This document shows positions 6,981 to 61,834 of a stretch of DNA of 64,000 nucleotides, in pieces. This stretch comes from Amycolatopsis tolypomycina. Its GTDB lineage: Bacteria > Actinomycetota > Actinomycetes > Mycobacteriales > Pseudonocardiaceae. Within the stretch, counting starts at the first letter, position 1; every line of letters begins with the position of its first letter. The position numbers and the translations under genes were made by a program. The notes below the pieces were generated by a model, which was given only the letters and a program-made list of their open reading frames with translations, was not told the DNA's origin and did no database searches. The DNA is taken from the NCBI RefSeq assembly GCF_900105945.1, contig NZ_FNSO01000004.1, forward strand, positions 5,642,001 through 5,706,000. Direction: 5' to 3'.

Positions 6981-8379
6981 ACTGGCGTACCGTGCTGGCC
7001 GCGGCGCGCTGACGTTTGTGTCCGGGCAATACGGAGAGCTGTCCGACTTCTACGACAGCAGCTTCAACGAGACGATCCCCGTCGGAGCCACTCCGCAGGA
7101 AGCGCCCCTCGGCGAGCAACTCCGCGGCGTTTCTCCCTCGGACTTCTCGTCCTTCGCGGAGCAGTTCGGCATCGACGCGACCCCGGACTTCCCCATCGTG
7201 GCCGACGTGGCCGCGACCACGCCAGCCGGTACGCCGGTGACGGTCCGCCCGGACACGAGCGACCCGGCCGGGCACCCGTTGACGTTGGTGGCGGATCAAC
7301 CACCGGCTCACGGCACCGTCGCCGTGGACGGCACGGCCGTCACCTACACGCCTGCGGCCGGGTTCTCGGGCACCGACACCTTCACCGTGAAATCGACCAA
7401 CGGCACCCTCAGCTCCGACCCGGCGACCATCACGATCACGGTCACCCCGGCCGTGGTGAACCACGCGCCGGTCGCCGGAGCACAGGCCGTCACCGCGGTG
7501 GCCGGTCAGCCGTTGCCGATCACGCTCACTGGCACCGACCCCGACGGGGACAACCTCGCCTACACCGTGCTGACCGCTCCGGTCCACGGCACGCTCAGCG
7601 GGACGGCCCCGAACCTGACGTACACGCCGGCACCCGGGTTCCAAGGTCCGGACTCGCTCACCTTCAAGGTCAACGACGGCAAGGTCGATTCCCCGGCCGT
7701 CACGGTGGCGATCACGGTCGTGCAGGCCGCCGGCTGCCAAGCGGCGCCGAAGCTCGACACGCAGGTGAGCGCGACCAGCGGCGGTGGCCGAAACAGAGTC
7801 ACCTCCCTGCCGGTCACCACACGGGGAAGCGGCGAACTCTTGCTGGCCTTCATCGGCGCCGACGGCCCTCAGGGCCGCCAGCAGCGCGTGATGACCGTCG
7901 TCGGCGGAGGCCTGAACTGGACGCTCGCCGCACGGGCGAATACCGGCGGGGGCACAACCGAGGTGTGGCAGGCGTACGCGAAGCGTCCACTGGACCGTAT
8001 GAGGGTCACGACGATCTTCGCTCGAGGCGGGTTCGACAGCACCATCACCGTGGCCGCCTACAGCGGTACCGCTCGCAAGCTCGGCGCCACCGGTTCGGCG
8101 GCCTCGCGATCGGGCAATCCCGCCGTGGCGGTCTCCACGACGAGTTGCAACGCGGTGGTGTGGGCTCTGGGCCATGACCTCTCCGACGCCAAGGCGCCCA
8201 CCGTGTCGCCGGGGCAGACGATCGTCCACCAATTCCTCGATGGCCGTGCGCGAACCTCTTACTGGGTCAAGCGGACCGACAATCCCGTCCCCGCACGCAC
8301 TCGGGTTGTCTTCACCGACTCGAAGATCACCAGGGACAAGTGGGCGTACGTCGCCGTGGAGGTGGTCCCGGCTCGATAA
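6981..8379 (+). pseudogene. Secreted Ig-like/VCBS-type repeat protein, 5' end removed at the IS junction
   Basis: The open frame enters from the right IS terminal repeat and runs to a TAA at 8379, about 466 residues outside the IS. It has no signal peptide and its apparent start codons lie inside the IS, so the original 5' part is missing. Two Big_9/cadherin-like repeats are visible: VTVRPDTSDPAGHPLTLVAD through SGTDTFTVKSTNG, and LPITLTGTDPDGDNLAYTVL through GPDSLTFKVNDGK. The C-terminal 220 residues form a beta-rich domain. Related proteins are cell-wall or secreted. The portion before the repeats (FVSGQYGELSDFYDSSFNET) may be the end of an N-terminal enzymatic or binding domain. Confidence 0.7.
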
Positions 8380-8394
8380 ACAACGGGAACCGTC

Positions 8395-8426
8395 GCCGGC
8401 CGGCAACCTCAGGATTGCCGGCCGGC
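8395..8426. terminator. Intrinsic terminator-like hairpin
   Basis: A perfect 12-bp inverted repeat GCCGGCCGGCAA / TTGCCGGCCGGC separated by 8 nt, 16 bp after the stop of the truncated repeat protein. There is no long U-tract. It overlaps the end of the frameshifted minus-strand gene, so it could serve both directions. Confidence 0.6.
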
Positions 8427-8707
8427 GGCCCATGTCAGCTGCCTGGCGTGGCGGTCCAGGAGGGCCTGCGCGAGGGCGTCCTGCGGTCCCCGGGTGGCGG
8501 CGGTCAGCGCGATGCTGTCGTCCCCGACCTTGTTGATGACCGACCCGCGTTTCTGCCGGCACGGGTGCCGGACTCGCCCGGGATTGCCGGCCAGTCGAGC
8601 CGGTCGAAGTCGAGCAGGTCCAGCTCTCCGCACAGGCGGTCACCTGCGTCAGCGATCTCGGCAGGATCGTCGCACCAGTCGCCGACGACCAGTTCGAGGT
8701 CCGCCAT
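8409..8707 (-). pseudogene. Small protein gene interrupted by a frameshift
   Basis: Reading from the ATG at 8707 gives MADLELVVGDWCDDPAEIAD and then AGDRLCGELDLLDFDRLDWP. Coding character then jumps to another frame near 8555-8565, continuing KRGSVINKVGDDSIALTAAT and ending LDRHARQLTWAAGRQS at 8409. Each half looks protein-like only in its own frame, which suggests a one- or two-base indel. Total length would be about 99 residues. No family is recognised. It lies directly beside the 133-bp repeat at 8708-8840. Confidence 0.45.
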
Positions 8708-8840
8708 ACGACACGGCCCGCCGAAATCCTGTTCGGCTGGATCCAGGCCCGGTCGCCTGCAGATTGCGCCGGACGTTCGATAGGGAGCGCGGCCAGTTCT
8801 CTCACCAATTTCACTGGGGCACAGCTGGGGCAAACCCCCT
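8708..8840. repeat. 133-bp diverged repeat, copy 1 (copy 2 at 55195-55327)
   Basis: Aligns without gaps to 55195-55327 at roughly 80% identity by eye. Both begin ACGACACGGCC and both contain an identical run ending CACAGCTGGGGCAAACCCCCT. About 60 bp further on, both loci also share CTGGCAGTGAGRGGGTCAG (8902-8920 and 55435-55453). I see no convincing coding frame. It probably marks the end of related integrative elements. Confidence 0.75.
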
Positions 8841-8912
8841 CCTCGGACCGCGCTAAGCCGCACGGAACTGCACCCAACTGCCCCAGACTGCCCCAGTCGA
8901 CCCTGGCAGTGA

Positions 8913-8944
8913 GGGGGTCAGGGGTTCGAGTCCCCTTAGCTCCA
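8913..8944 (+). other. tRNA 3'-end fragment, likely attachment-site scar
   Basis: The sequence forms a perfect T-arm (AGGGG-TTCGAGT-CCCCT, 8920-8936) followed by a 7-nt acceptor strand TAGCTCC and discriminator A (8944). There is no matching 5' half, D-arm or anticodon arm upstream. Tyrosine-integrase elements of actinomycetes integrate into tRNA 3' ends and leave this kind of fragment at one border. The element would lie to the left, ending with the repeat at 8708-8840. The parental tRNA would start GGAGCTA; I do not assign its isotype. Confidence 0.65.
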
Positions 8945-9432
8945 CTGGTCCGAAGCATCGGTAGCCCCTACACCGGCGTTGACCTGCAAATTATGCGGCT
9001 CAAGGGGGTTACCGATCGGCTTACGACCCTGTGACAAAACCCGAACTCTCGGGCTGATGCGAGCGTGATCCAATGACCGCTGTCCGTGCGCGGTCCATAC
9101 CGGACGATGTCGCCGTCGGACACCCTGGTCTTCGTACTGGCGCCCTCCGCGATGTGCGCCCTTGAGTGAGCAGGTCTGGCTAACGTCACTAGCGGCTGCT
9201 GCGATCCCATTGACTGATAACTTCAATAAGACCCATCCGGTTGAGAGGCCAATCAGGCTTCCGTCTTCTGGCCAGCAGGTTGTTCAGCCCTGATGATCGA
9301 CACCAGCGGTCGCGCGCGGGCGGCGCCAATACGCCGCTTTCGAGAAGACGAACGCCCCCGCTTGACAGTGAAGTGGACACGACGACAACGGCGTAGTCAG
9401 GAACCAACGCCGTTGTCGGAGCCGACGCACTC
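8945..9432. other. Gene-free stretch of about 490 bp
   Basis: I see no convincing gene here. A minus-strand frame (8968-9210) contains a protein-like peptide (SDGDIVRYGPRTDSGHWITL) but lacks a good start and decays at both ends, so it may be a remnant. The stretch separates the tRNA scar from the catabolic island. Confidence 0.5.
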
Positions 9433-23840: not shown

Positions 23841-24641
23841 TCACGCTCGCGCCTGCGTCGCCACCTCGGCCTGAGCCGATCGCCCTTGCGCGTCAGCTCG
23901 GATCATCGCCACAAGCAGCCTGGAGCGGGCGGCGCCGATACGGAGCTTCCGCCGAAGCGTGTCCGCGGAGATCGGCCGGTGACACGCATCCCAGTGACGC
24001 GCGTCCTCCTCCCTCGCCCGCCCAAGCAGATCGTCATCAACCAACCTGGAAGCTGGCCGATTGCCCGGCTTGCATACCGACGTACCATCGGGTGTCGCGT
24101 CGTCCCCAGATGATTCCGGCACCGTCTGACCGAACGCGGCTGGTTCGTCGGCGCGCGGAGCCTGCACCGGCCCCACGTCTTCCGGCGATGCTTCGGCCAC
24201 ACGACTCGCGGTACTCAGCGCCCTCAGCAGATCCGGGCCAACCTCAGCCCATCCGATCAGCAACAACGGACCCACGGCGTCAAACGCAGCCCGGCCATAC
24301 TCACCGGCTACGACCGGGTCGGCCACGTTGAAAGCCAGGGTCACCACGCTCGCGAACAACAGCAGTCGGCGAGCCGGCCGCAGTTGCGCTGCTGTCACCC
24401 CCGCCAGGGCCAAGTGCCGACTGCCGATCAGAAGCCCGAGGATCGAGAGATCGACTGCAGGTGCGACAAGTGGAGCAACCCAGACGGGCACGCCGAGGCG
24501 AACCGCGAGATTGAGAACGTTTCCGAAACCGAACAGGAAAGTCAGGCCGACAACGACACCCATGATCACTGTGACAGCTCGAACGACACGAGCCCCATCC
24601 GAACCTGATCGACCTGACAAATCAGCTGCGGGCTGGATCAT
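23841..24641 (-). CDS. DUF2637-domain membrane protein (SpdA/SpdB-like), full-length copy
   Basis: 266 residues. Four membrane helices fill the N-terminal half ([76 protein letters not shown]). The C-terminal 100 residues are soluble and end in a helix-rich segment ([20 protein letters not shown]). DUF2637 proteins occur in actinomycete integrative elements and plasmids. The start overlaps the stop of the double-HTH gene by 4 bp. A shorter paralogue lies at 52383-52853. Confidence 0.85.
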
Positions 24642-25096
24642 CGAGCATCACCTGCCTCGACGCGCGGACGCCCATGGGTGTCTCGGGTGGGGATGCCACG
24701 TTCGCGCAGCTTGTTCAGCACGGTGACGTGATCGACCCCCAGATGCCGACCGACTCGCGCCAGGGACCAGCCGAGCTCGTAGAGATGGATGGCATCGTCG
24801 ACCTGCTCGGGCGAGAGGCCACGGCGGCGCATCGGCACGCCGTACCGACGGAGGATGTTGCTGACCGTCCGTCGTTCGATTCGGAACCGGTCAGCCAGTT
24901 CATATACCGTCGCGCCAGATCGATACCCGGCGATCAACTGCTCGACTTGATCAGTGCCGAGCCGCCGGACACGCCGGGGTCGGTCCCGCTCGACCGACGT
25001 CAGCTCGGACGTATCGAGGCTGGGGAGCTTCTCGCGGAGCTCTTCCAAGGCCCTGACCTGGTCTTTTGTGTTCGAGTAAGGTCCCCTAACCTCCAC
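24638..25096 (-). CDS. Double helix-turn-helix protein of the integrative module, copy 1
   Basis: 152 residues from a GTG at 25096. Two resolvase-like HTH units are visible: [20 protein letters not shown] with [20 protein letters not shown], and [20 protein letters not shown] with [20 protein letters not shown]. It overlaps the integrase 3' end by 11 bp and the DUF2637 gene by 4 bp, so all three form one operon. It is probably an element-encoded regulator. A close paralogue is at 52850-53308. Confidence 0.85.
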
Positions 25097-26501
25097 ACCG
25101 TAAGGAACCCCTTCGTTTCAGCCTTCCGGGCTGGTCGGAGGGGTTTTCTGCGTTCCGGGTTCGATCATCGGTGATCGGCTTGCGGCGTGATCTTGTGCTC
25201 CTGGCGGGGCAGAACTGGAGCACTGCCCCAGCCCCGTTCCGGCGTCGGCGTGGCATTCCAGCTGCTCCCGGCCCCGGCCGGCGAGTGACCCCTACCGTGG
25301 CGAAGAGGGGGACAACCGCCGCCATCCGCCCGCTGTCGACCACACTCGGTGACGGCGTCGGCGGTAGCGGGGCCGCCGCGTGCCAGCGCCGTTCGAGGTC
25401 CTCCAGTAGCCGCTGCTCGACCTCCGGCGCAACGTGGGAGTAGGTCTCGATGACCCGGTTGTCCAAGTGGTGCCCGAGCCGGCGGGCCTGGGCGATCTCC
25501 GGCGCGCCGCCGGAGATCAGCCACGTCTTGTGGCTGTGCCGCAACCCGTGGAATGTCAACCCCGGCCGCACCGCCGCGCAGCCCGCCTTGGTCCCGGACG
25601 CCTCGCTGCCGTCGACCGCCGGGCGAAAGACGCGCCGCAGGAACGTCGAGCGCCACAACCACGTCCCGCTCGGCGTCTTGAACACAAACTCATACCGGTG
25701 CCGCGCAAGGTGCTCCCGCAGCAGCGCGACCAGGAACGGCGGCAGCGCGATCCTCCGCGCCGAAGCTCGGGTCTTCGGCGGCCCGAGCCACCGCATCGAC
25801 CCCGACTCGTGCAACGCCCCCACCAGCGGATCGATCACGATCACACCCCGCCGGAGATCGACATTGTCCCGGTGCAAGCCGGCCAGCTCACCCCACCGGC
25901 AACCGGTCCACGCCGCGGTGATCACCAGCAGCCACGCGATCGGCCCACCGAGCACACCGGCCTGCTCGGCGATCCGCACCACCTGCTCCGGCGTCGCCCA
26001 CACCCGCTCCGGCACCGCCCGTCGCGACCGCCGGCCGCGACGCCTCCGCCGGTGTACCGGGTTGAACGGGATCAGCCGCTCGTCGGCCGCATCAGTCAGA
26101 AGCATCGACAGCAGGTTCAGTTGCGAGCTCACCGTCGACGGGGCGAATCCTGCCCGCTCCAGCTCCCGAGCCCACTCGGCCACCCCCAGCGCCGTAATCG
26201 CACCCACCGGCATACCCCCGAACTTCGGGAGGATGTGACACCGCAACCGGCTGCGGTAGCTCTCGATCGTCCGCGGATCCAGATCCAGCGACCGGAACCA
26301 CCGCGCCACCCACTCCTCCACCGTGACCGCGCTGTCGGCCGGATCGATCCACACTCGCCGACGCCGATCCACCTCCAACCCAGCAGCGTAGGCCGCAGCG
26401 TCACGCCGCGAGCCGAAACCGGACACCGAGCGAACACCGCACCCCTGCCGCCGATACCTCACCCGCCACGACCTGCTGCCACACTGCTCCACCCACGCCA
26501 C
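25086..26501 (-). CDS. int: Tyrosine site-specific recombinase (integrase)
   Basis: About 471 residues from a GTG at 26501 preceded by GGGAGG; the frame is open further upstream without a better start. The N-terminal Arm/SAM-like binding region includes [20 protein letters not shown]. The catalytic core shows R in [18 protein letters not shown], HxxR in [14 protein letters not shown] in [17 protein letters not shown] and the nucleophilic Y in that same segment. The C-terminal extension of about 90 residues is proline- and arginine-rich. It catalyses excision and integration of the element. No att site or tRNA is found directly beside the gene. From 26502 to 26785 I see no gene. Confidence 0.9.
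25106..25145. promoter_or_regulatory. Conserved nested hairpin between integrase and HTH gene, copy 1
   Basis: Outer stem AACCCCT (25106-25112) pairs with AGGGGTT (25139-25145) and an inner stem CAGCC/GGCTG. A T-rich run (TTTTCTG) follows on the plus strand. The identical outer stem and the same 40-nt length occur at 53318-53357, while the loop bases differ. It lies inside the integrase reading frame, just ahead of the HTH start, so it may act as a plus-strand terminator or influence translation of the HTH gene. Confidence 0.5.
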
Positions 26502-52382: not shown

Positions 52383-52853
52383 TCAGGTGGCGGTCTCTCC
52401 GCTCACGGCAGCAGTACTGGTTGCGCCGATCGCTTGCAACAGGCCAGGGCCGACTTCCGACCATCGGACCAGGAGGAGCGGCCCTACCGCGTCGAACGCC
52501 GCCTTACCGAATTCGCTCGCTACGAGAGGCTCTGCCACGTTCAGCGCGAGCGTGATCACGCTGGCGAAGATCAGCAGCCGACGCGCCGACCTCAGCACCT
52601 CCTCCGGGGATGCACCGGTGAGAGCCAGATGCCGGGTGCCGAGCAGAAGCCCGAGGATCGAAAGGTCAACCGCGGGAGCCACGAGCGGAGCGACCCAAGT
52701 GGGCACGCCGAGCCGCAGCGCGAGGTTGAGGACGTTGCCGAAGCCGAAGAGTAAAGTAAGTCCGACGACGACGCCCATGATCACGGTGACGGCCTGCACG
52801 ACGGAGGCCCTGTCCGAAGCAGATCGCATCGACACAGCTGCACGCCTGGTCAT
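52383..52853 (-). CDS. DUF2637-domain membrane protein, short copy
   Basis: 156 residues. It keeps the four membrane helices of the 23.8-kb copy ([76 protein letters not shown]) but stops after VSGETAT and lacks the 110-residue soluble C-terminus. The start overlaps the stop of the HTH gene by 4 bp, as in the other copy. It may be functional as a minimal form or be truncated. Confidence 0.8.
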
Positions 52854-53308
52854 CGAGCAACACCTGCTTCGACGCGCGGACGCCCGTGGGTGTCACGCGT
52901 GGGGATGCCGCGTTCACGCAGTTTGTTCAGCACCGTGGTGTGGTTGACGCCCAGGTGGTCGCCGACTCGGGCCAGTGACCAGCCGAGGTTGTAGAGGTGG
53001 ATGGCGTCATCAACCTGCTCGGGCGAGAGGCCGCGGCGGCGCATCGGCACGCCGTGCCGGTGGAGGATGGTGCCGACCGTTCGCCGTTCGATGCCGAACC
53101 GGTCACCGAGCTCGTACACCGTCGCGCCGGACCGGTAGCCGGCGATCAGTTGCTCGACTTGCTCGGGGCCGAGTTTCCGGGCGCGGCCGGGACGATCCCA
53201 CTTGACTGGCGACGGCTCGGGGGTATCGAGCCTGGGGGGCTTCTCGCGAAGCTCTTCCAGAGCCCTGACCTGGTCTTTTATGTTCGAGTAAGCTCCCCTG
53301 ACCTCCAC
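52850..53308 (-). CDS. Double helix-turn-helix protein of the integrative module, copy 2
   Basis: 152 residues from a GTG, the same length as the copy at 24638-25096 and roughly 80% identical by eye (for example [60 protein letters not shown]). The two HTH units are intact. Without an intact integrase it may still regulate neighbouring promoters. Confidence 0.85.
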
Positions 53309-53420
53309 ATCGCAACGAACCCCTTTGCTTCAGTCGTTTTGGCTGGTCGGAGGGGTTTTCTGCATTGCGGGTTCGATCTTCGGTGATCGTCTTGCGGCAT
53401 GATCTTGTGCTCCTGGTGAG
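53309..53420 (-). pseudogene. 3' remnant of a tyrosine integrase gene plus conserved hairpin, copy 2
   Basis: DNA from 53309 to about 53418 parallels 25097-25206, the 3' end of the intact integrase gene, including the 40-nt hairpin (53318-53357, stems AACCCCT/AGGGGTT) and the stretch GATCTTGTGCTCCTGG. Similarity ends abruptly after CTCCTGG, and what follows is the TetR promoter. The rest of the integrase has been lost, so this module is immobile by itself. Confidence 0.65.
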
Positions 53421-55327: not shown

Positions 55328-55738
55328 GTCACAACTGCACTCACCAACACACAGTTGCCAACAACGGCGATCAAGCACACCATTCCACTAGGCGATTCCC
55401 TATCGCCACAGGTCAGGACCATGATCGGCCCACACTGGCAGTGAGAGGGTCAGCAGCGCTGTTCTTGCTGGTCAAGGACCCCGCCGCCCCAGACCAACCT
55501 TGCTGGAGCTTCGCGGCGGCGGTCAGAAACCCGGCGAGAAAGATCGAGCGCACCGCCCGCAGCGAGATCCACCGCGGAAACCGCGTGCACTTGAACGAGA
55601 TCGGTCGCAAGGTTTGGACCCGCGCAAGCCGCTTCACTTACCCATGGCCGCGAGCGTCTCGTTCATGTCTACCTCGCTCGCGCCAACACGACGGACCGTA
55701 GGTCACCTCCCACACACCACCGACGCCGTACGACACGG
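55328..55738. other. Gene-free stretch between element relic and defence locus
   Basis: About 410 bp without a credible gene; short frames lack starts and coding bias. It has lower GC and mixed composition compared with the flanks, consistent with decayed element DNA. Confidence 0.45.
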
Positions 55739-58700
55739 TCAGTCGACCGGCGGCAACAGGAGGTCATCGAGGTTGGGTGCCTCGGTCGTGACCACCTCGG
55801 CCCGCCGGGCCCATTCCCGCAGGCTCGCGACCGTCAGGGGATGACCGCCGACGCATTCGCGCAGATCCTCGTCGTCCGCCGCAAGAATCGCTTCGGGTGT
55901 GACACAGCCGCTGTCGGCCAGGTCGAGATACACCTGACGAGTCAGCCCGGCGCCGGCCACGCGTGCCAGCGGGACAGCGTCCGCCGGGATACCGAGTTCC
56001 AGCTGCGTCGGGATGAGCTCGCCGAGCCGGACGAGCACCGCGTCGACGTCGGGGTGGATCTCGCGGCCAATCGAGATCACCGTGTCGATCACATCGCGCA
56101 CCCGCGCCGCGACGGCGCGGACGGGACCGATCACATCCTTGCCCGGCATGTGCTTCATGAGGGCGGGTTCCAGCTGCGCGGCAGGTGTGCCTTGCATCCA
56201 GAGCAAGCAGGCCACGGCTTTCTTCGCCCGCCGCGCGGGCAGACTCGGCTCCGGCAGTCGCGTCACGCTGAGCTGCCGCACCGCGGCGGGTGCCGCCCCC
56301 TGCCGGTGCAGTGCAGGCCCGAACGTACCCAGCTCGGCGCGATGACCGCGGTGGTGGACCGGGAAAAGTACCTGGTCGACCTCGGCGGTCAGCTGGGCAA
56401 CCGTGATGAGGGTGGCGCGGTTGAGCTGGTCCTGGGTGAGCGACCGCAGTGCGCGCGTGACACTCAGTGCTGAGCGCACGGACAGCGCGCTTCGGGAGAC
56501 CAGCGTCCCGAGCGGAGTCAAGACCAACGCGCCCTGCTCCGTCTCGGCCACGAACGCCTGGTTGCGGAGCTCGTCGAGCACGCCCAAGACAGTCGAAGGG
56601 TCGAACAGCTCGTCCGCGCCCGCAAGCCGGCGTTGGTGGGACGCGAAGCTGTTGGCCAAGACCGAGACGACGTCATGGATCGTGATGCCGCTGCCGGTTC
56701 GACTGGAAGCGACCAGCACGACGCGCAGCACGAGAGTGTCGATGTCGAGGTCGGGGTGCAAGAGGCTCGAGGTGATGTCTTCCGGGGTGCCGGTGACATA
56801 GCGGTTCCACTTGTCATGCTCGTCGGCGGCACCGTAGGCGAGGACGATCGCCGTCCCCGCTTCGGTGAGTCCGAGCCGCCCGGCCCGGCCGGCGATGTTC
56901 TTGTATTCGGCAGTCGTGTACGGCACGGACCGGCGGAGCCCCAGGGGATGGTCGAGCTCGGCGATCACCACGGTCTCGACCGGCAAGTTCAGGCCTTGGG
57001 CCAGTGTGGTGGTGGAGGCGATGACGCGAATCGGGCTGTCCGGCCGACGGAAGACTTCCTCGATGACGCGCTTTTCGTCGCGTTGCAGGTCGGCGATGTG
57101 GAATGCGACGCCGCCTTGCAGGCACTGGCGCAGCTCCTGCGAGAGCACGGTCGGGTCTCCCGCGGGCAGCGCCTCGATCGCCTCGGGAGCTGCCGGCAAT
57201 CCGAGGGCTTCCGACAGGTAGCGAGCGCTGCCGCGCGCGGCACCTTTGCTGCTGCGGAAGACGATCACCTGCTGGCCGTCACCGACTAGCTTCCGCACCA
57301 GTGGCACGAGGAAGTCCCGAGCACGCCCGGCGTAGCGAAGCGGCAGGAACTGTTCGACGCGTTCTTCACCGTCTTCGAGGGCCCGGAACACGCCGTTCGG
57401 ACGGAGGATGCCTTCGACCAGGGCGACCGGCCGTTTCGTCCAACGGACCGGCTGAGCCTCGAGCCACGAGTCGAGGCCACCGAAGTCGCCAAGGACGGCG
57501 GACAAGCACACCAATTGCGGAGCGATGCCGTCGTCGCGGCGCGACTTGATTGCGGTCAGCAGCAGCTCGAGCAGCGGCCCGCGGCCGGTGTCGACGAGCG
57601 TCTGGACCTCGTCCACGACGATCACCGACAGCATCCGGAGGATGTGCGAGGAAGAGAGCGCTAGGCCGGTGAACTTCTCGTAAGTCAGGATCGCGATGTC
57701 GAACTGGCCGAGGACGAACTCCGGCAGCTGGTCGCTGATCTCCCCGGTGGCACGCACGACCCGGATGCCGAGGTCGCCGTACGTCTTCGTGAAGCGGTCG
57801 AACTGCTCGTTCACCAGAGCACGGGTCGGGAGGAGGAACACCGATCGGCCGCCGCGCCGGGACGCGCCCAACGCGGCCAGCTCACCGAGCATCGTCTTGC
57901 CCGACGAAGTCGGTGCGGACACCAGGACGTTCTTGCCGACGAGCAATCCCGCGTTGTTGATCACGCTCTGCTGTAGCTCGTTCAAGCCGGGGAAGGTCTC
58001 AGCCCACCGGTCAAGCACCTCGTCGGCGATGCCGTGGCCTTTCAGGCTGTCGATGGCTGCGGTCACCGGAGCCGTCGACCGCTCTGGGAACAGTTCCCGG
58101 AACCGCGGGCCGGGCGCGAAGACCGGCCAAGTGGGCGCGCCGTCCAGCTGGCCGCGCAGCGTCGGCTCCTGACGCGCGGCCATGGTGCCTGACGCGGCGG
58201 CGATGACCCTCGTGGTGACGTAGGCCAGGAGGGCGTGGATCGGGACCCGGCCCTTTTCGACCACGCTCTCCTGCCCAAGCAACGCTGTAACAGGTGGTAG
58301 GTCAACAGGCCGTGGCCGAGGACCGGGTCTTCGTAGGCCGGCTGGTCCGCTGTCGATGCGGTGAGGATCAGCCGGCCACGGCCCGCGAGCTGATCGAGCC
58401 GGGCCGCGGTGGACAGCAGAGCGCCCCCGGAGACCGACCCACGGGGCTGATACTGGGCGTGCAGCACCTTGGCACCGGCACCGCCGGAGAAGCAGCAGTC
58501 CAGGACGACGACCAGCTGGCGCGCCGGGATCGCGGAGACGCGTTCGGTCAGGTCGTCCAGCAGCAGGCAGGAACCGGCGAAATCCGCCGGGTCGGCGTCG
58601 TAGGTGACCAGCTCGTGGGTGTCGGTGCCGTGCCCGGAGAACGTGATCACGACGACGTCGTCCGGGCTCGCGGTCTCGGTCAGCACGTCCAGCTCGGTGA

Positions 58701-58914
58701 CCAGCCGGTCGCGGGTGGCGTCCTGATCCAGGAGCCGGACAGTGTTGCCGCCGAGGTTGTCCTCGAACAGCGCGTGTAGTGCTGCGGCGTCTCGTACCGC
58801 AGAGGCCAGGTTCGGGATCCGCGGTGATTCGTACCGGTCCACGCCGACGAACAGGCCGCGCAGACGCGGCACGATCTGCTCCGCTGTCGCGTCTGCCAGC
58901 TCGTCCGGGTGCAT
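55739..58914 (-). pseudogene. Caspase-like peptidase fused to Ski2-like SF2 helicase, split by a one-base frameshift
   Basis: Frame 1 from the ATG at 58914 encodes a C14 caspase-like domain: RLRGLFVGVDRYESPRIPNL, catalytic His95 in VVITFSGHGTDTHE and Cys141 in LVVVLDCCFSGGAG. It ends LLTYHLLQRCLG at about 58275. Frame 2 continues LLGQESVVEKGRVPIHALLA and carries a full helicase: motif I SAPTSSGKTMLGE, II IVVDEVQTLVD, III VCLSAVLGD, V IASTTTLAQGLNLP, VI YKNIAGRAGRLG, then a helix-hairpin-helix-like C-terminus (LDLADSGCVTPEAILAADDE). Adding one G between 58284 and 58285 gives LLQALLGQESVVEK and one 1058-residue protein. As written the gene is disrupted; a sequencing error is possible. Confidence 0.85.
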
Positions 58915-59543
58915 CGCGAGATTCTCTCACCCGGGTTGACGCGTACACGATCCGGTGAATTGTAGCCACGAGCGCGGCCCGACGCGGGTCTCCTCACCCG
59001 GGTAAATTCGACTTGCAGACGAAGAAGCGCTGGCCGAAGTCCAGGGGGCCGTTAGTGGCCAGCAACGTCGTCGCCTTGTCACCAGCCGGCCACGGTCGCT
59101 TAGCTGGTGCTGCAGCTCGCAGCCGAAGGCGAGGGGGCTCGCCGCGCGCAGATCGCGCGCCCTTTCATCGCGGTTGTCCGATCGGTCCCCGGTGACGTAC
59201 TCACAAACCTCGGCACCACCATCCGCGACTGCGGCTCCGATGCCGATCATTGAAATCACGCTCGCCGAAGGCGACTCCACGACTCAGCTGCGCGAGTCCG
59301 ACTGCTCGCATGGTCCTTTGAGGACAGTAGAGGCCTCGGTGCCAACTCGTACGGCCGATGTGCGACGGACAGAACAATTTCGCCGGCCGGCGCTCCCGCG
59401 CTCTTCGCCCCCGCGACGAGGACGAGGGCCAGTCGAATTCAACCTCGACCTCGGGAGTTCACGACTTCTGACGCTCGTACGTCTCAGCCCGCTTTCGGAA
59501 GATGTCGCGAGGTTTCGGCTCCTTGGGGAGTAACATCCGCTGG
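58915..59543. other. Divergent intergenic region of the caspase-helicase/HEPN locus
   Basis: About 630 bp without a credible gene. It must hold the promoters of both divergent genes. I do not see a clear operator palindrome; short frames on either strand have no start signals. Confidence 0.45.
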
Positions 59544-61391
59544 ATGTCCAGCACGACAGCGGAAGAGTCTGATTTCGATCTTTCCCGGGAGAGGATCACG
59601 GAACTCGCCGCACTCGCGGATGCCGCTGCCGCGGAAGCGAAGCGCGGCTGGTACGAGATCTCCTCCGCGCTCACGGACAAGCGCGGCGCAGCGGACGTCG
59701 ACGCCATCGCGATCGCCTTCGACTACCGCCTGCAGGAGCGCATCGACGGGAACAGCAACCCCGTGTTCCACGCCGCACAGCTGACGCCTCTTGCGGAGCT
59801 GCCGACGTCCGTTGCGGACCTATGGGCGAACGTCGTGGGCGCCACCGCGTCGGTGCCGGTTCGCGCGCGCCTGCACGATCTCCTCTTCACCCTCGGCAGG
59901 CAGCCCAAGCACAAGCACGCCGACCAAGCCTGCCGGGCCTACCTGGAAGTGGGCGCGGGGAACTGGGGTTCGCTGTACCGCGTACGCGCCCTGGCCCGCG
60001 CGCTCGACATCGCCCGGCAGATGAACCGCAACGACCTTGCGGACGACGCGATGAAGCAGATCATCGCTAACGCCCGGGAGTCCCTCGACGGCGTTGAATG
60101 GCAGCCCGGCGTATCCCTGCGTCTGATCGGCCGCCTCGCCGAGGAGAAGAACCCGCCGACCGGTGTCGACGATCTCCTGGTGGAGGCGCGAGCACGTTAC
60201 GCCGGAGACCCCTACATCGAGGTCGACGCGGCTATGTTGCAGCGCCGCCTCGCGAAGGGCGACAAGGACGCACTGGGGCGGATCGACCGGGAGGTCGTCG
60301 GGATCTGGACGAAGGCCGCAGAGGCGTCGACCGGGCTCCAGAGGCTGGGACATCTCACCAAGGCGGTCGACTATGCCAGAGACCACGGGCAGACCGGCCT
60401 ACTCGCCGCGGCCACCACCGCCCTGCAGGCGATCGGCATCGATGACCTGGGGATGCAGACGTTCCGTGTCCCCGTCGAGATTCCCGACGAGAAGATCAGC
60501 AAGTGGATCGGCTACTTCACCCAGGGCGATGACTGGCGCGTATGTATCGCGCGGTTCGAGAACGGCGAGCACGGGACGCCTCCAACCGGCCGAACCGCGG
60601 AGAACCGCTCCCAGATGGCCAAGGACACCTCGCTGTACTCGATGATTCCGCACTCGAAGATCGGTGGTGACGGGCTCCCGCGGTGGGAACCGCAGAACGA
60701 GGACGACCAGGAAGAGCAACGTCTGTCCGATGTAGAGATGTTCAGGATGCAGCTGTGCGCGCCGCTGCTCGCCAAGGCGTTGCACGAAATCGGGGTCGTC
60801 CACCACCCGATCCGCGAGGAAGTCGAGGAGTTCTTCGCTGAACGGATCTTCCTGCCGCCGGACATCCCCCGGGTCTTGGCCGACGCATTGACGAGGTACT
60901 GGCGCCGAGACTACGAAGCCTGCGCCTACCTGCTCGCGCCGAAGATCGAGACGATGCTTCGCGTCCTCGCCAGGGCGATTGACGAGCCGGTTTACCTGAC
61001 CCAGCGGAAGAACACTCCGGGGAAGTACGTCGGACTCGGGACTCTGATCTCGACGCTCGGTAAGCACGGCCTGGACGAGTCCTGGGGCAGGTACCTCTCC
61101 ACACTGCTCGCCGGCCCGACGGGGTGGAATCTGCGGAACGAGCTGGCACACGGGTTCGTCGACGAGGTTTCCGCGCCCATGGCCGCGCTGCTGATCCAGG
61201 CGACGCTCTACGTCGCCAACCTCGCCCCGCGCGGACGAGCCGCCGCCGACGCCAGAGGCCGAATAGGCGCACCGCTCGAGGCGTGCATGCAGACCGGCCG
61301 CGGCCTGCGCCCCTTCGAGAGCACCGGGCAGCTGGCCACGACTCGCCGCCGCGGAGGCTTGGGAGCCGGCCGGACACAGAGTCGACCGTAG
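59544..61391 (+). CDS. DUF4209-like protein with HEPN-type RNxxxHG motif
   Basis: About 615 residues from the ATG at 59544 with GGGGAG 15 bp upstream; a GTG at 59502 is an alternative. The N-terminal 350 residues are helical with repeat-like character (FHAAQLTPLAELPTSVADLW, YRVRALARALDIARQMNRND). The C-terminal part contains EIGVVHHPIREEVEEFFAER, APKIETMLRVLARAIDEPVY and NLRNELAHGFVDE. Arg531-His536 form the RNxxxHG motif of DUF4209, which also fits the Rx4-6H active site of HEPN ribonucleases. It is probably a nuclease effector or a regulatory partner in the locus shared with the caspase-helicase. The last 40 residues are low-complexity. Confidence 0.75.
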   Translation: MSSTTAEESDFDLSRERITELAALADAAAAEAKRGWYEISSALTDKRGAADVDAIAIAFDYRLQERIDGNSNPVFHAAQLTPLAELPTSVADLWANVVGATASVPVRARLHDLLFTLGRQPKHKHADQACRAYLEVGAGNWGSLYRVRALARALDIARQMNRNDLADDAMKQIIANARESLDGVEWQPGVSLRLIGRLAEEKNPPTGVDDLLVEARARYAGDPYIEVDAAMLQRRLAKGDKDALGRIDREVVGIWTKAAEASTGLQRLGHLTKAVDYARDHGQTGLLAAATTALQAIGIDDLGMQTFRVPVEIPDEKISKWIGYFTQGDDWRVCIARFENGEHGTPPTGRTAENRSQMAKDTSLYSMIPHSKIGGDGLPRWEPQNEDDQEEQRLSDVEMFRMQLCAPLLAKALHEIGVVHHPIREEVEEFFAERIFLPPDIPRVLADALTRYWRRDYEACAYLLAPKIETMLRVLARAIDEPVYLTQRKNTPGKYVGLGTLISTLGKHGLDESWGRYLSTLLAGPTGWNLRNELAHGFVDEVSAPMAALLIQATLYVANLAPRGRAAADARGRIGAPLEACMQTGRGLRPFESTGQLATTRRRGGLGAGRTQSRP

Positions 61392-61730
61392 CGAGCGGCG
61401 CCGAGTTCGCCCCGTCCTACGGGTTACGCTGCGCGTCGGCGAACCGCTCCTCCAAGAGTTCGTACTTGCCGAGGACGATGTCGTCCTGCTGCCGAAGTAG
61501 CGGACGAACCGGCCACCCCTCCGGCCGGGCACGGTAGCCTTTAAGCACCCCGTTCTGCGTACGACGCGTCGCAGAACGTCGTACGGACCCACCCTGCCTG
61601 GCCACGGTTCGGCATGCCGCGTCGCTGCGTGGCACGCCGTGGTCTGCTGGTGCACGAAGCCGGGCAGCGTTGCGCCTATCCTTGGACGATCGTCAAGATA
61701 GACACTAAATCGCCCCTACTCATGGGTAGC
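61392..61730. other. Gene-free stretch of about 340 bp
   Basis: No credible gene; a few short frames overlap without starts. It separates the accessory defence locus from the core tRNA-Asn/dnaG region and may be the accessory-region border. Confidence 0.45.
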
Positions 61731-61760
61731 AAAAAAGCCCAGGTCATCGACCTGGGCTTT
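61731..61760 (-). terminator. Intrinsic terminator of tRNA-Asn
   Basis: A 12-bp perfect stem (AAAGCCCAGGTC with GACCTGGGCTTT, 61734-61760) and a 3-nt loop, followed on the minus strand by a run of six T. It begins 1 bp after the tRNA 3' end. Confidence 0.9.
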
Positions 61761-61761
61761 G

Positions 61762-61834
61762 CTCCCCCGCTTGGACTCGAACCAAGAACCCTCCGGTTAA
61801 CAGCCGAATGCTCTGCCAGTTGAGCTACAGGGGA
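61762..61834 (-). tRNA. tRNA-Asn (GTT)
   Basis: 73 nt on the minus strand. Acceptor TCCCCTG pairs with CGGGGGA (one G-T wobble), discriminator G. The D-arm is GCTCAACTGGCAGAGC. The anticodon arm is TTCGG-CTGTTAA-CCGGA with anticodon GTT. The T-arm is TTGGTTCGAGTCCAA in form. CCA is not encoded. A strong terminator follows directly. Confidence 0.97.

Follow-up and report, generated by a model that had tools for sequence, protein, structure and literature searches.

The caspase-helicase locus

The window, that is, the whole 64,000-nucleotide stretch of Amycolatopsis tolypomycina DNA analysed here, carries a minus-strand gene at 55739-58914. Its coding sequence, split over two frames, specifies a C14 caspase/metacaspase domain together with a full-length SF2 helicase of the Hel308/Pol-theta type. 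The gene belongs to an accessory region next to a tRNA-Asn gene. It is adjoined on one flank by a divergently transcribed gene for a DUF4209 protein and on the other by a short-chain dehydrogenase gene. The features located are as follows.

55739-58288, minus strand: SF2 helicase portion of the frame-broken gene, Hel308/Pol-theta type (840 aa analysed)
56876-56890, minus strand: helicase motif VI GRAGR (both Arg in 92 of 92 aligned homologues)
57602-57613, minus strand: helicase motif II DEVQ (Asp in 91 and Glu in 92 of 92 aligned homologues)
57893-57916, minus strand: helicase Walker A motif APTSSGKT (Lys in 92 of 92 aligned homologues)
58264-58288, minus strand: interval of the caspase-to-helicase frame change (two overlapping family-profile matches in different frames)
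58264-58914, minus strand: C14 caspase/metacaspase-like part (Pfam and family comparison)
58480-58500, minus strand: caspase Cys motif DCCFSGG (Cys in 92 of 92 aligned homologues)
58627-58641, minus strand: caspase His motif FSGHG (His in 91 of 92 aligned homologues)
59544-61391, plus strand: DUF4209/HEPN-family protein, 615 aa (PF13910, 29.7 bits against a cut-off of 22.3)
61134-61154, plus strand: RNELAHG, an RNxxxHG motif (residues 531-537 of 615)
61761-61834, minus strand: tRNA-Asn(GTT), probable integration site (confirmed in the window)

The caspase piece (58063-58914, minus strand) matched Pfam PF00656 at 6e-13, with 49.5 bits against a cut-off of 21.4. By this gathering score it belongs to Peptidase C14, and a protease is predicted. 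The helicase piece (55739-58300, minus strand) matched DEAD at 9.8e-25 and Helicase_C at 1.1e-8. Together with the located motifs, these matches confirm the original prediction of a caspase with FSGHG and DCCFSGG and a complete SF2 helicase with GRAGR. Alignment of the homologues indicates that both putative active sites, the caspase His-Cys dyad and the helicase motifs, are conserved across the family, and since the motifs are conserved at this level, chance is excluded as their origin.

We also compared the two pieces with an intact homologue, in which residues 15-212 are colinear with the caspase piece and residues 217-1055 with the helicase piece. The open frame of the caspase continues to 58063, where its residues are unlike those of the family, and by the family profile the switch of frame falls at about 58264-58288. 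A programmed frameshift was judged an unlikely cause of the break because 77 of 81 called cores reach at least 900 aa in a single frame. Single-frame, intact versions are common elsewhere, including one 93% identical to the window gene in another genome of the same genus. Consequently, the single polypeptide first proposed exists in relatives, while the window sequence itself is in two frames, and this copy may be dead.

The helicase is nearer to Hel308 than to HamB

Bit scores of 278 for Hel308 and 116 for HamB placed the helicase nearer to Hel308. The similarity to Hel308/Pol-theta spans the whole helicase, both in sequence and in predicted fold, and the structure model contains a full-length Hel308-like fold including the C-terminal domains. 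'Ski2-like', the term first applied to it, is correct if taken broadly; Hel308/Pol-theta is the closest group. The helicase scored 199.8 bits with NCBIfam NF040935 (equivalog cut-off 1200) and 259.5 bits with PRK02362 (cut-off 887); since these scores are below the cut-offs, it is Hel308-like and by that rule no orthologue. A VIA-align search with the fusion model returned only helicases and barely probed the caspase part. In the model the alignment to Hel308 starts at residue 284, directly after the caspase, which would leave little room for a HamB-type N-terminal helical domain; HamB models match the helicase region alone. A search for HamB in 60 relatives at E <= 1e-100 gave no match, an outcome that says nothing either way because the controls were silent too. 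Unlike Hel308, HELQ and Pol-theta helicases, the present family is widely distributed in bacteria and carries a fused caspase; known Hel308 and Pol-theta enzymes function in repair. The family places Hel308-like helicases in bacteria, from which Hel308 is said to be absent in a section of PMC12278908.

Distribution and mobility of the family

Both domains were present in 113 of the 120 protein matches listed. We fetched 80 caspase-helicase loci and placed 64 of them, with 15 phylum labels, in a tree. Like labels group together on the tree, with 19 changes compared with a shuffled mean of 38.3, so that spread across phyla is limited. The distribution is patchy: the helicase was found in 7 of 150 relatives (E <= 1e-60) and in 4 of 394 Actinomycetes, the genome of the window being included in both counts. 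In one Actinomycete the copy is interrupted by a TAA. Twelve copies come from the plasmid collection, and a near-identical 15-kb element bearing an integrase also carries the gene, although the identical stretch could partly be contamination of draft genomes. No caspase-helicase fusion was found in the phage records searched. Eleven of the 12 plasmid copies are annotated 'DEAD/DEAH box helicase' and the other 'superfamily II helicase'; because they bear helicase names alone, the caspase half is easily overlooked.

The genes around the fusion were also analysed. In a raw count, 10 of the 12 plasmid loci have TIR, caspase, ubiquitin-like, Piwi, restriction or SAVED genes in the vicinity. In PADLOC tallies made from 77 of 194 near proteins and 77 of 177 selected far proteins (from 258), near genes matched 63 families and genes 6-10 kb away matched 127. 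PD-T4-6, which we take to be a kinase family, was the majority of the far families among those listed (25 per tally). No model spanning the whole fusion was among the PADLOC-DB matches listed. A close same-strand neighbour is present at 31 of 65 loci, so a partner is perhaps needed at some of them; the other 34 have no such gene on either side. The analysis supports the fusion as a real, conserved, mobile and defence-associated family.

The DUF4209 gene is probably an independent neighbour

The protein encoded divergently from the fusion has the 615 residues and the DUF4209 assignment originally described. The R, N, H and G of its RNxxxHG motif are at least 90% conserved (R534, N535, H539 and G540 in alignment A3, 25 rows, comprising 25 of 27 homologues with two truncated ones omitted). 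The motif had been placed at the end of the protein, but in the window protein it occupies residues 531-537 of 615. The HEPN-type assignment agrees with PMC3710099, where DUF4209 is listed within the HEPN superfamily. In the predicted structure an N-terminal alpha-solenoid is joined to a C-terminal helical domain. A Foldseek search with this model gave no match at E <= 0.001, and among the structure matches listed, which were filled by the N-terminal solenoid, none was named HEPN. Colinearity with the closest homologue is lost over the final 52 residues; the nearest named homologues are from Amycolatopsis. PADLOC returned PDC-S39 alone (5e-26), presumably, going by its name, a single-gene candidate. 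The neighbour matches both PDC-S39 and Pfam DUF4209, and PDC-S39 is not known to be paired with a helicase. Among viral contigs, a single-sequence query gave no match and an alignment query gave one. The tRNA-Asn gene, also named in the original prediction, was confirmed nearby. The DUF4209 gene is often beside tRNA-Asn or a partial copy of it, with partial copies near the gene at loci L124 and L131.

In the original prediction the two genes formed one system, a caspase-helicase plus a DUF4209/HEPN RNase. Their adjacent, divergent arrangement in the window would fit such a system, as would a weak co-occurrence at the genome level (2 of 6 versus 10 of 143 without the window's own genome, p = 0.075; p = 0.015 with it). 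DUF4209 was detected in 13 of 150 relatives (E <= 1e-5) and both genes in 3, the own genome included in each count. In the two other carriers the genes are ~3.0 and 7.8 Mb apart and the DUF4209 genes are fragmentary remnants. Nine of 394 Actinomycetes have DUF4209, and the own genome is the sole carrier of both. A DUF4209 profile, used in a scan that took in 108 loci, had no match in the flanks (up to 10 kb a side) of the 80 caspase-helicase loci. Adjacency was therefore seen in 0 of 149 other relatives, 0 of 393 other Actinomycetes and 0 of 80 fetched loci. DNA similarity to relatives spans each gene separately. Because adjacency was confined to the own genome in the samples searched, homologues are rarely neighbours, an outcome named in advance as counting against the pair. 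The shared sampling of relatives and Actinomycetes and the profile scan of loci led us to reject the pair as a conserved system; the hypothesis is largely refuted, and we regard a joint system in the window as highly improbable. We judge that the DUF4209 gene travels separately and is an independent neighbour. The proposal of an immunity locus holds for the conserved, mobile, defence-associated fusion and fails for the pair, and the object of interest is the fusion alone.

A proposed one-chain mechanism and its alternatives

We give an about even chance to the fusion being a mobile, one-chain immune protein whose caspase is licensed by a Hel308-like motor when that motor detects abnormal DNA; such a protein would most likely be largely self-contained. 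The motor would scan for stalled or recombining forks, single-stranded tails, and broken or invading DNA. Its ATP-driven engagement of such DNA would relieve inhibition of the N-terminal metacaspase-like protease, which would then cleave cellular or co-encoded target proteins and so stop the infected cell, an antiphage role that we infer. More tentatively, and at somewhat short of even chances, we propose that this bacterial Hel308/Pol-theta-type branch, fused in one chain to a metacaspase-like domain, with 15 phylum labels and borne partly on plasmids and integrative elements, constitutes a so far unnamed family of immune proteins whose DNA-surveillance motor directly licenses a caspase.

The roles could be reversed, with the caspase as switch and the helicase as effector, such that a stimulus triggers autoproteolysis and the Hel308-like helicase, once released, unwinds or disrupts invading DNA. 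The sole NCBIfam match of the caspase piece was 'caspase_w_EACC1', low-confidence loops follow the catalytic Cys in the model (residues 143-148 and 153-163), and autoproteolytic deployment of effectors is proposed for EACC1 in a portion of Kaur et al. (PMC7159879). We consider this reversal unlikely: the match, at 92 bits, is below the EACC1-caspase cut-off of 140, the window has the divergent DUF4209 gene 5′ of the caspase rather than an EACC1-type gene, and a close same-strand gene is absent from 34 of 65 loci. The latter loci also argue against a helicase-gated initiator caspase that cleaves a separately encoded, lineage-specific pro-effector, as in Canu or HamMAB, and no same-strand upstream partner is present in the window. 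Such a partner would be consistent with the same-strand gene within 60 bp upstream at 21 of 65 loci, with the homologous gene that overlaps or abuts the fusion start at four loci (SEFIR by Pfam in both that were scanned), and with the protease-activated nucleases covered in a part of PMC12799240; overall we find this arrangement less likely still. The candidate partners vary and include a SEFIR protein, a DUF2158 protein, nucleases and others. The least likely of these three is a non-immune repair or recombination helicase that serves the upkeep of mobile elements, with the caspase for turnover. Known Hel308 and Pol-theta enzymes act in repair, and the gene is found on plasmids and on the integrase-bearing element. 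However, the fusion is patchy, often solitary and repeatedly close to defence-type genes, and a housekeeping repair helicase would not be expected to keep a caspase active site.

Relation to known systems

Helicase sensors and caspase effectors are each already known in bacterial immunity. A full Hel308-type motor and an intact caspase in a single chain would provide a compact test of how DNA surveillance leads to proteolysis and, if the proposed mechanism is true, a one-protein path from nucleic-acid sensing to caspase-type cell death. One of the nearest systems is Hachiman (HamA-HamB, with AbpAB and HamMAB variants), which in sections of PMC12278908 and PMC12799240 likewise couples an effector to a DNA helicase of the Ski2 superfamily, the probable sensor, and of which HamMAB is a protease-fused variant. 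In the present family the caspase is joined directly to a helicase nearer Hel308 than HamB, and in the window no HamA/DUF1837 gene is next to the helicase, whose neighbours are the DUF4209 and short-chain dehydrogenase genes. The fusion appears analogous to Hachiman in logic, yet it is not Hachiman.

The EACC1-caspase systems (Kaur et al. 2020) share with the fusion an N-terminal caspase followed by a variable C-terminal domain. A portion of PMC7159879 names SF2 helicases for other systems and not a caspase-helicase architecture. Unlike those systems, the window shows no EACC1 gene, and its NCBIfam score is under the cut-off. Canu, Thoeris-linked and gasdermin-linked caspases differ from the fusion in their sensors, which include TIR signalling, CARD/NLR and CanAB. 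These too are caspase-family proteases in phage defence, but none is described as a Hel308 fusion in the relevant section of PMC12799240. No paper on a caspase-helicase fusion was found in the open-licence literature, searched mostly without subscription papers and preprints. The excerpted 2012 survey by Asplund-Samuelsson (PMC3501461) gives no family, context or immune role for helicase-bearing metacaspases, but the architecture has already been glimpsed there, because helicase activity was counted in 12 of 671 bacterial metacaspase sequences.

Intact relatives and the frame break in the window

On the minus strand of the window, the caspase and helicase domains lie in two pieces:

58063–58914, minus strand, caspase piece, open frame; C14 caspase-like domain (PF00656, 6e-13)
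55739–58300, minus strand, helicase piece, frame; SF2 helicase (DEAD 9.8e-25, Helicase_C 1.1e-8)

The original prediction that both domains belong to one polypeptide after frame repair was borne out in part: it holds for relatives, not for the sequence of the window, in which the pieces are colinear with residues 15–212 (caspase) and 217–1055 (helicase) of an intact homologue, P0028. The two frames also match adjoining positions (model 203–1046 and 5–210) of a profile built from 26 intact relatives, which places the frame change at 58264–58288; an intact relative aligns with the first 215 codons of the caspase frame. As written, the caspase frame lacks the last part of its domain, the remainder of which continues in the helicase frame. 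Its product is therefore probably inactive, judging from the reading frames, and the fusion gene of the window may be inactive. In a genome of the same genus, G029, the counterpart is an open frame of 1062 codons, 93% identical to the window fusion at the amino-acid level. Between these two copies, dN/dS amounts to 0.128 (helicase) and 0.162 (caspase piece). Consequently, the frame break is either recent or an assembly error.

A protein search gave 1991 matches at E ≤ 1e-3 among 7992 candidates scored. Among the 120 matches listed, 113 contained both PF00656 and PF00270, and most were ~1050 aa long. In 92 aligned members the caspase His was kept in 91 and the Cys in all 92, as were the Walker A Lys and both motif VI Arg; in motif II, Asp was kept in 91 and Glu in 92. 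Among the PADLOC-DB matches listed, the helicase region or the caspase was covered separately, with none spanning the fusion, and literature searches in one open-licence library revealed no account of a caspase-helicase fusion. Of 671 bacterial metacaspases surveyed in 2012, 12 were counted as having helicase activity (PMC3501461).

Distribution and mobility of the fusion

The fusion is rare within lineages, with its helicase in 7 of 150 related genomes (E ≤ 1e-60) and the fusion in 4 of 394 Actinomycetes, the window's own genome included in both counts. Across lineages it is widespread: of the 340 stretches matched in the GTDB collection, 301 carry a gene for a relative. The best 80 of these 301 were fetched, and 64 of the 80 were placed on a tree after exclusion of near-duplicates and of short and odd rows. 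The 15 phylum labels on the tree cluster overall (19 changes versus a shuffled mean of 38.3). Bacteroidota nevertheless forces at least six label changes, which is suggestive, though not proof, of some transfer.

Ten loci (L041–L047, L053, L060 and L072) share a near-identical ~15-kb stretch carrying a tyrosine integrase, a DUF2158 gene and the caspase-helicase. L044 is 98.9–99.99% identical to eight of the others, and to a ninth over 7.0 kb. The hosts are Bradyrhizobium, Sphingomonas, Xanthobacter and MAGs, which suggests very recent spread across several alphaproteobacterial genera; contamination of some drafts may account in part for the near-identity. The fusion was found in 12 of 72,556 plasmid records and in none of 50,697 phage records. 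In IMG/VR, one contig encodes a full-length relative and one other gave a weak partial match.

Genes around the fusion

Neighbours, taken from simple ORF calls, were counted at 65 distinct loci, leaving out 11 loci of duplicate layout, 4 short loci and the viral locus. A same-strand gene lay within 60 bp upstream at 21 loci, downstream at 14, on both sides at 4 and on neither side at 34. Upstream genes vary, and include a SEFIR-type protein, DUF2158 proteins, an Mrr nuclease, a type III Res subunit and a YgjP protein behind an HsdR. The SEFIR-type genes of L071, L077, L084 and L102 are homologous, form one cluster (Pfam-confirmed in L077 and L084) and overlap or abut the caspase-helicase start, so that these loci are a possible two-gene subtype.

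Annotations around all 12 plasmid copies (H1–H12) placed conflict-type genes, with names that we assign to defence, within 8 kb of the fusion in 10. No such gene was found within 8 kb of H3, and H11 has the layout of H12 with genes lacking names.

Conflict-type genes within 8 kb of plasmid copies of the fusion
H1, H2: TIR and caspase
H4, H5, H12: multiubiquitin-ThiF-DUF6527
H6: ABC-three-component
H7: PLD/Fic
H8: Piwi with DEAD helicase
H9: second caspase
H10: XamI restriction-modification with SAVED

Multiubiquitin-ThiF-DUF6527 cassettes recur near the fusion on plasmids L162, L171 and L167, directly upstream in L167. Matches to PADLOC showed no proximal enrichment (63 families near the fusion versus 127 at 6–10 kb), and the link to defence is therefore an association rather than a measured enrichment.

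The best-supported reading is that of a sensor-effector chain, in which the Hel308-like motor would act as a DNA-integrity sensor and the caspase as the effector. This reading draws on analogy with Hachiman, in which an effector is reported to be gated by a DNA helicase of the Ski2 family (PMC12278908, PMC12799240). Because 34 of the 65 loci have no close partner, we favour a self-contained caspase effector, while the remaining loci, with a close same-strand gene, allow for an initiator caspase.

The DUF4209 gene as a probable separate candidate

59544–61391, plus strand, DUF4209 gene, 615 aa; DUF4209 29.7 bits, RNELAHG at residues 531–537

The fusion and this divergent neighbour had been proposed to form one immunity system, but in the genomes and loci searched they did not recur as neighbours. 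DUF4209 occurs in 13 of the 150 relatives (E ≤ 1e-5) and both genes in 3, adjacent solely in the window's own genome; the distance between them is ~3.0 Mb in G029 and ~7.8 Mb in G078, and in both DUF4209 is fragmentary. Fisher p for co-occurrence is 0.015 when the own genome is counted and 0.075 when it is left out. Among the 394 Actinomycetes no other genome has both, and a DUF4209 profile matched none of the 80 fusion loci with their flanks of up to 10 kb on each side. DNA alignment to G029 covers the fusion gene alone (55737–58984), and that to another related genome, G046, runs from DUF4209 into the tRNA (59506–61796). We regard the DUF4209 protein as best taken for a second HEPN-type candidate, independent of the fusion.

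A tRNA-Asn lies close to the DUF4209 gene in the window (at 61761–61834, with 61391–61834 spanning from the end of the gene through the tRNA) and in L125 (8984–9057), and partial copies of 53–56 bp lie close to it in L124 (8655–8710) and L131 (9377–9429); no tRNA was found at the L126 DUF4209 locus. Given these tRNA-Asn sequences, the gene is apparently a recurrent end-cargo of elements integrating into tRNA-Asn, in four genomes. Each of the 15 same-genus genomes searched has a match to the right flank (tRNA-Asn, methyltransferase, primase side), whereas the left flank, among the matches listed, matches them only as scattered pieces. On the left, a ~970-bp stretch with an HTH gene (52447–53416) has a 79% identical copy at 24235–25204, and its relatives are scattered in other genomes, as expected of integrative-element debris. 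Over its last 52 residues (61233–61391) the DUF4209 protein lacks colinearity with its closest homologue, and this points to a late frame change; RNELAHG is unaffected. One IMG/VR contig, L165, encodes a DUF4209 relative of 34% identity (8001–9410).
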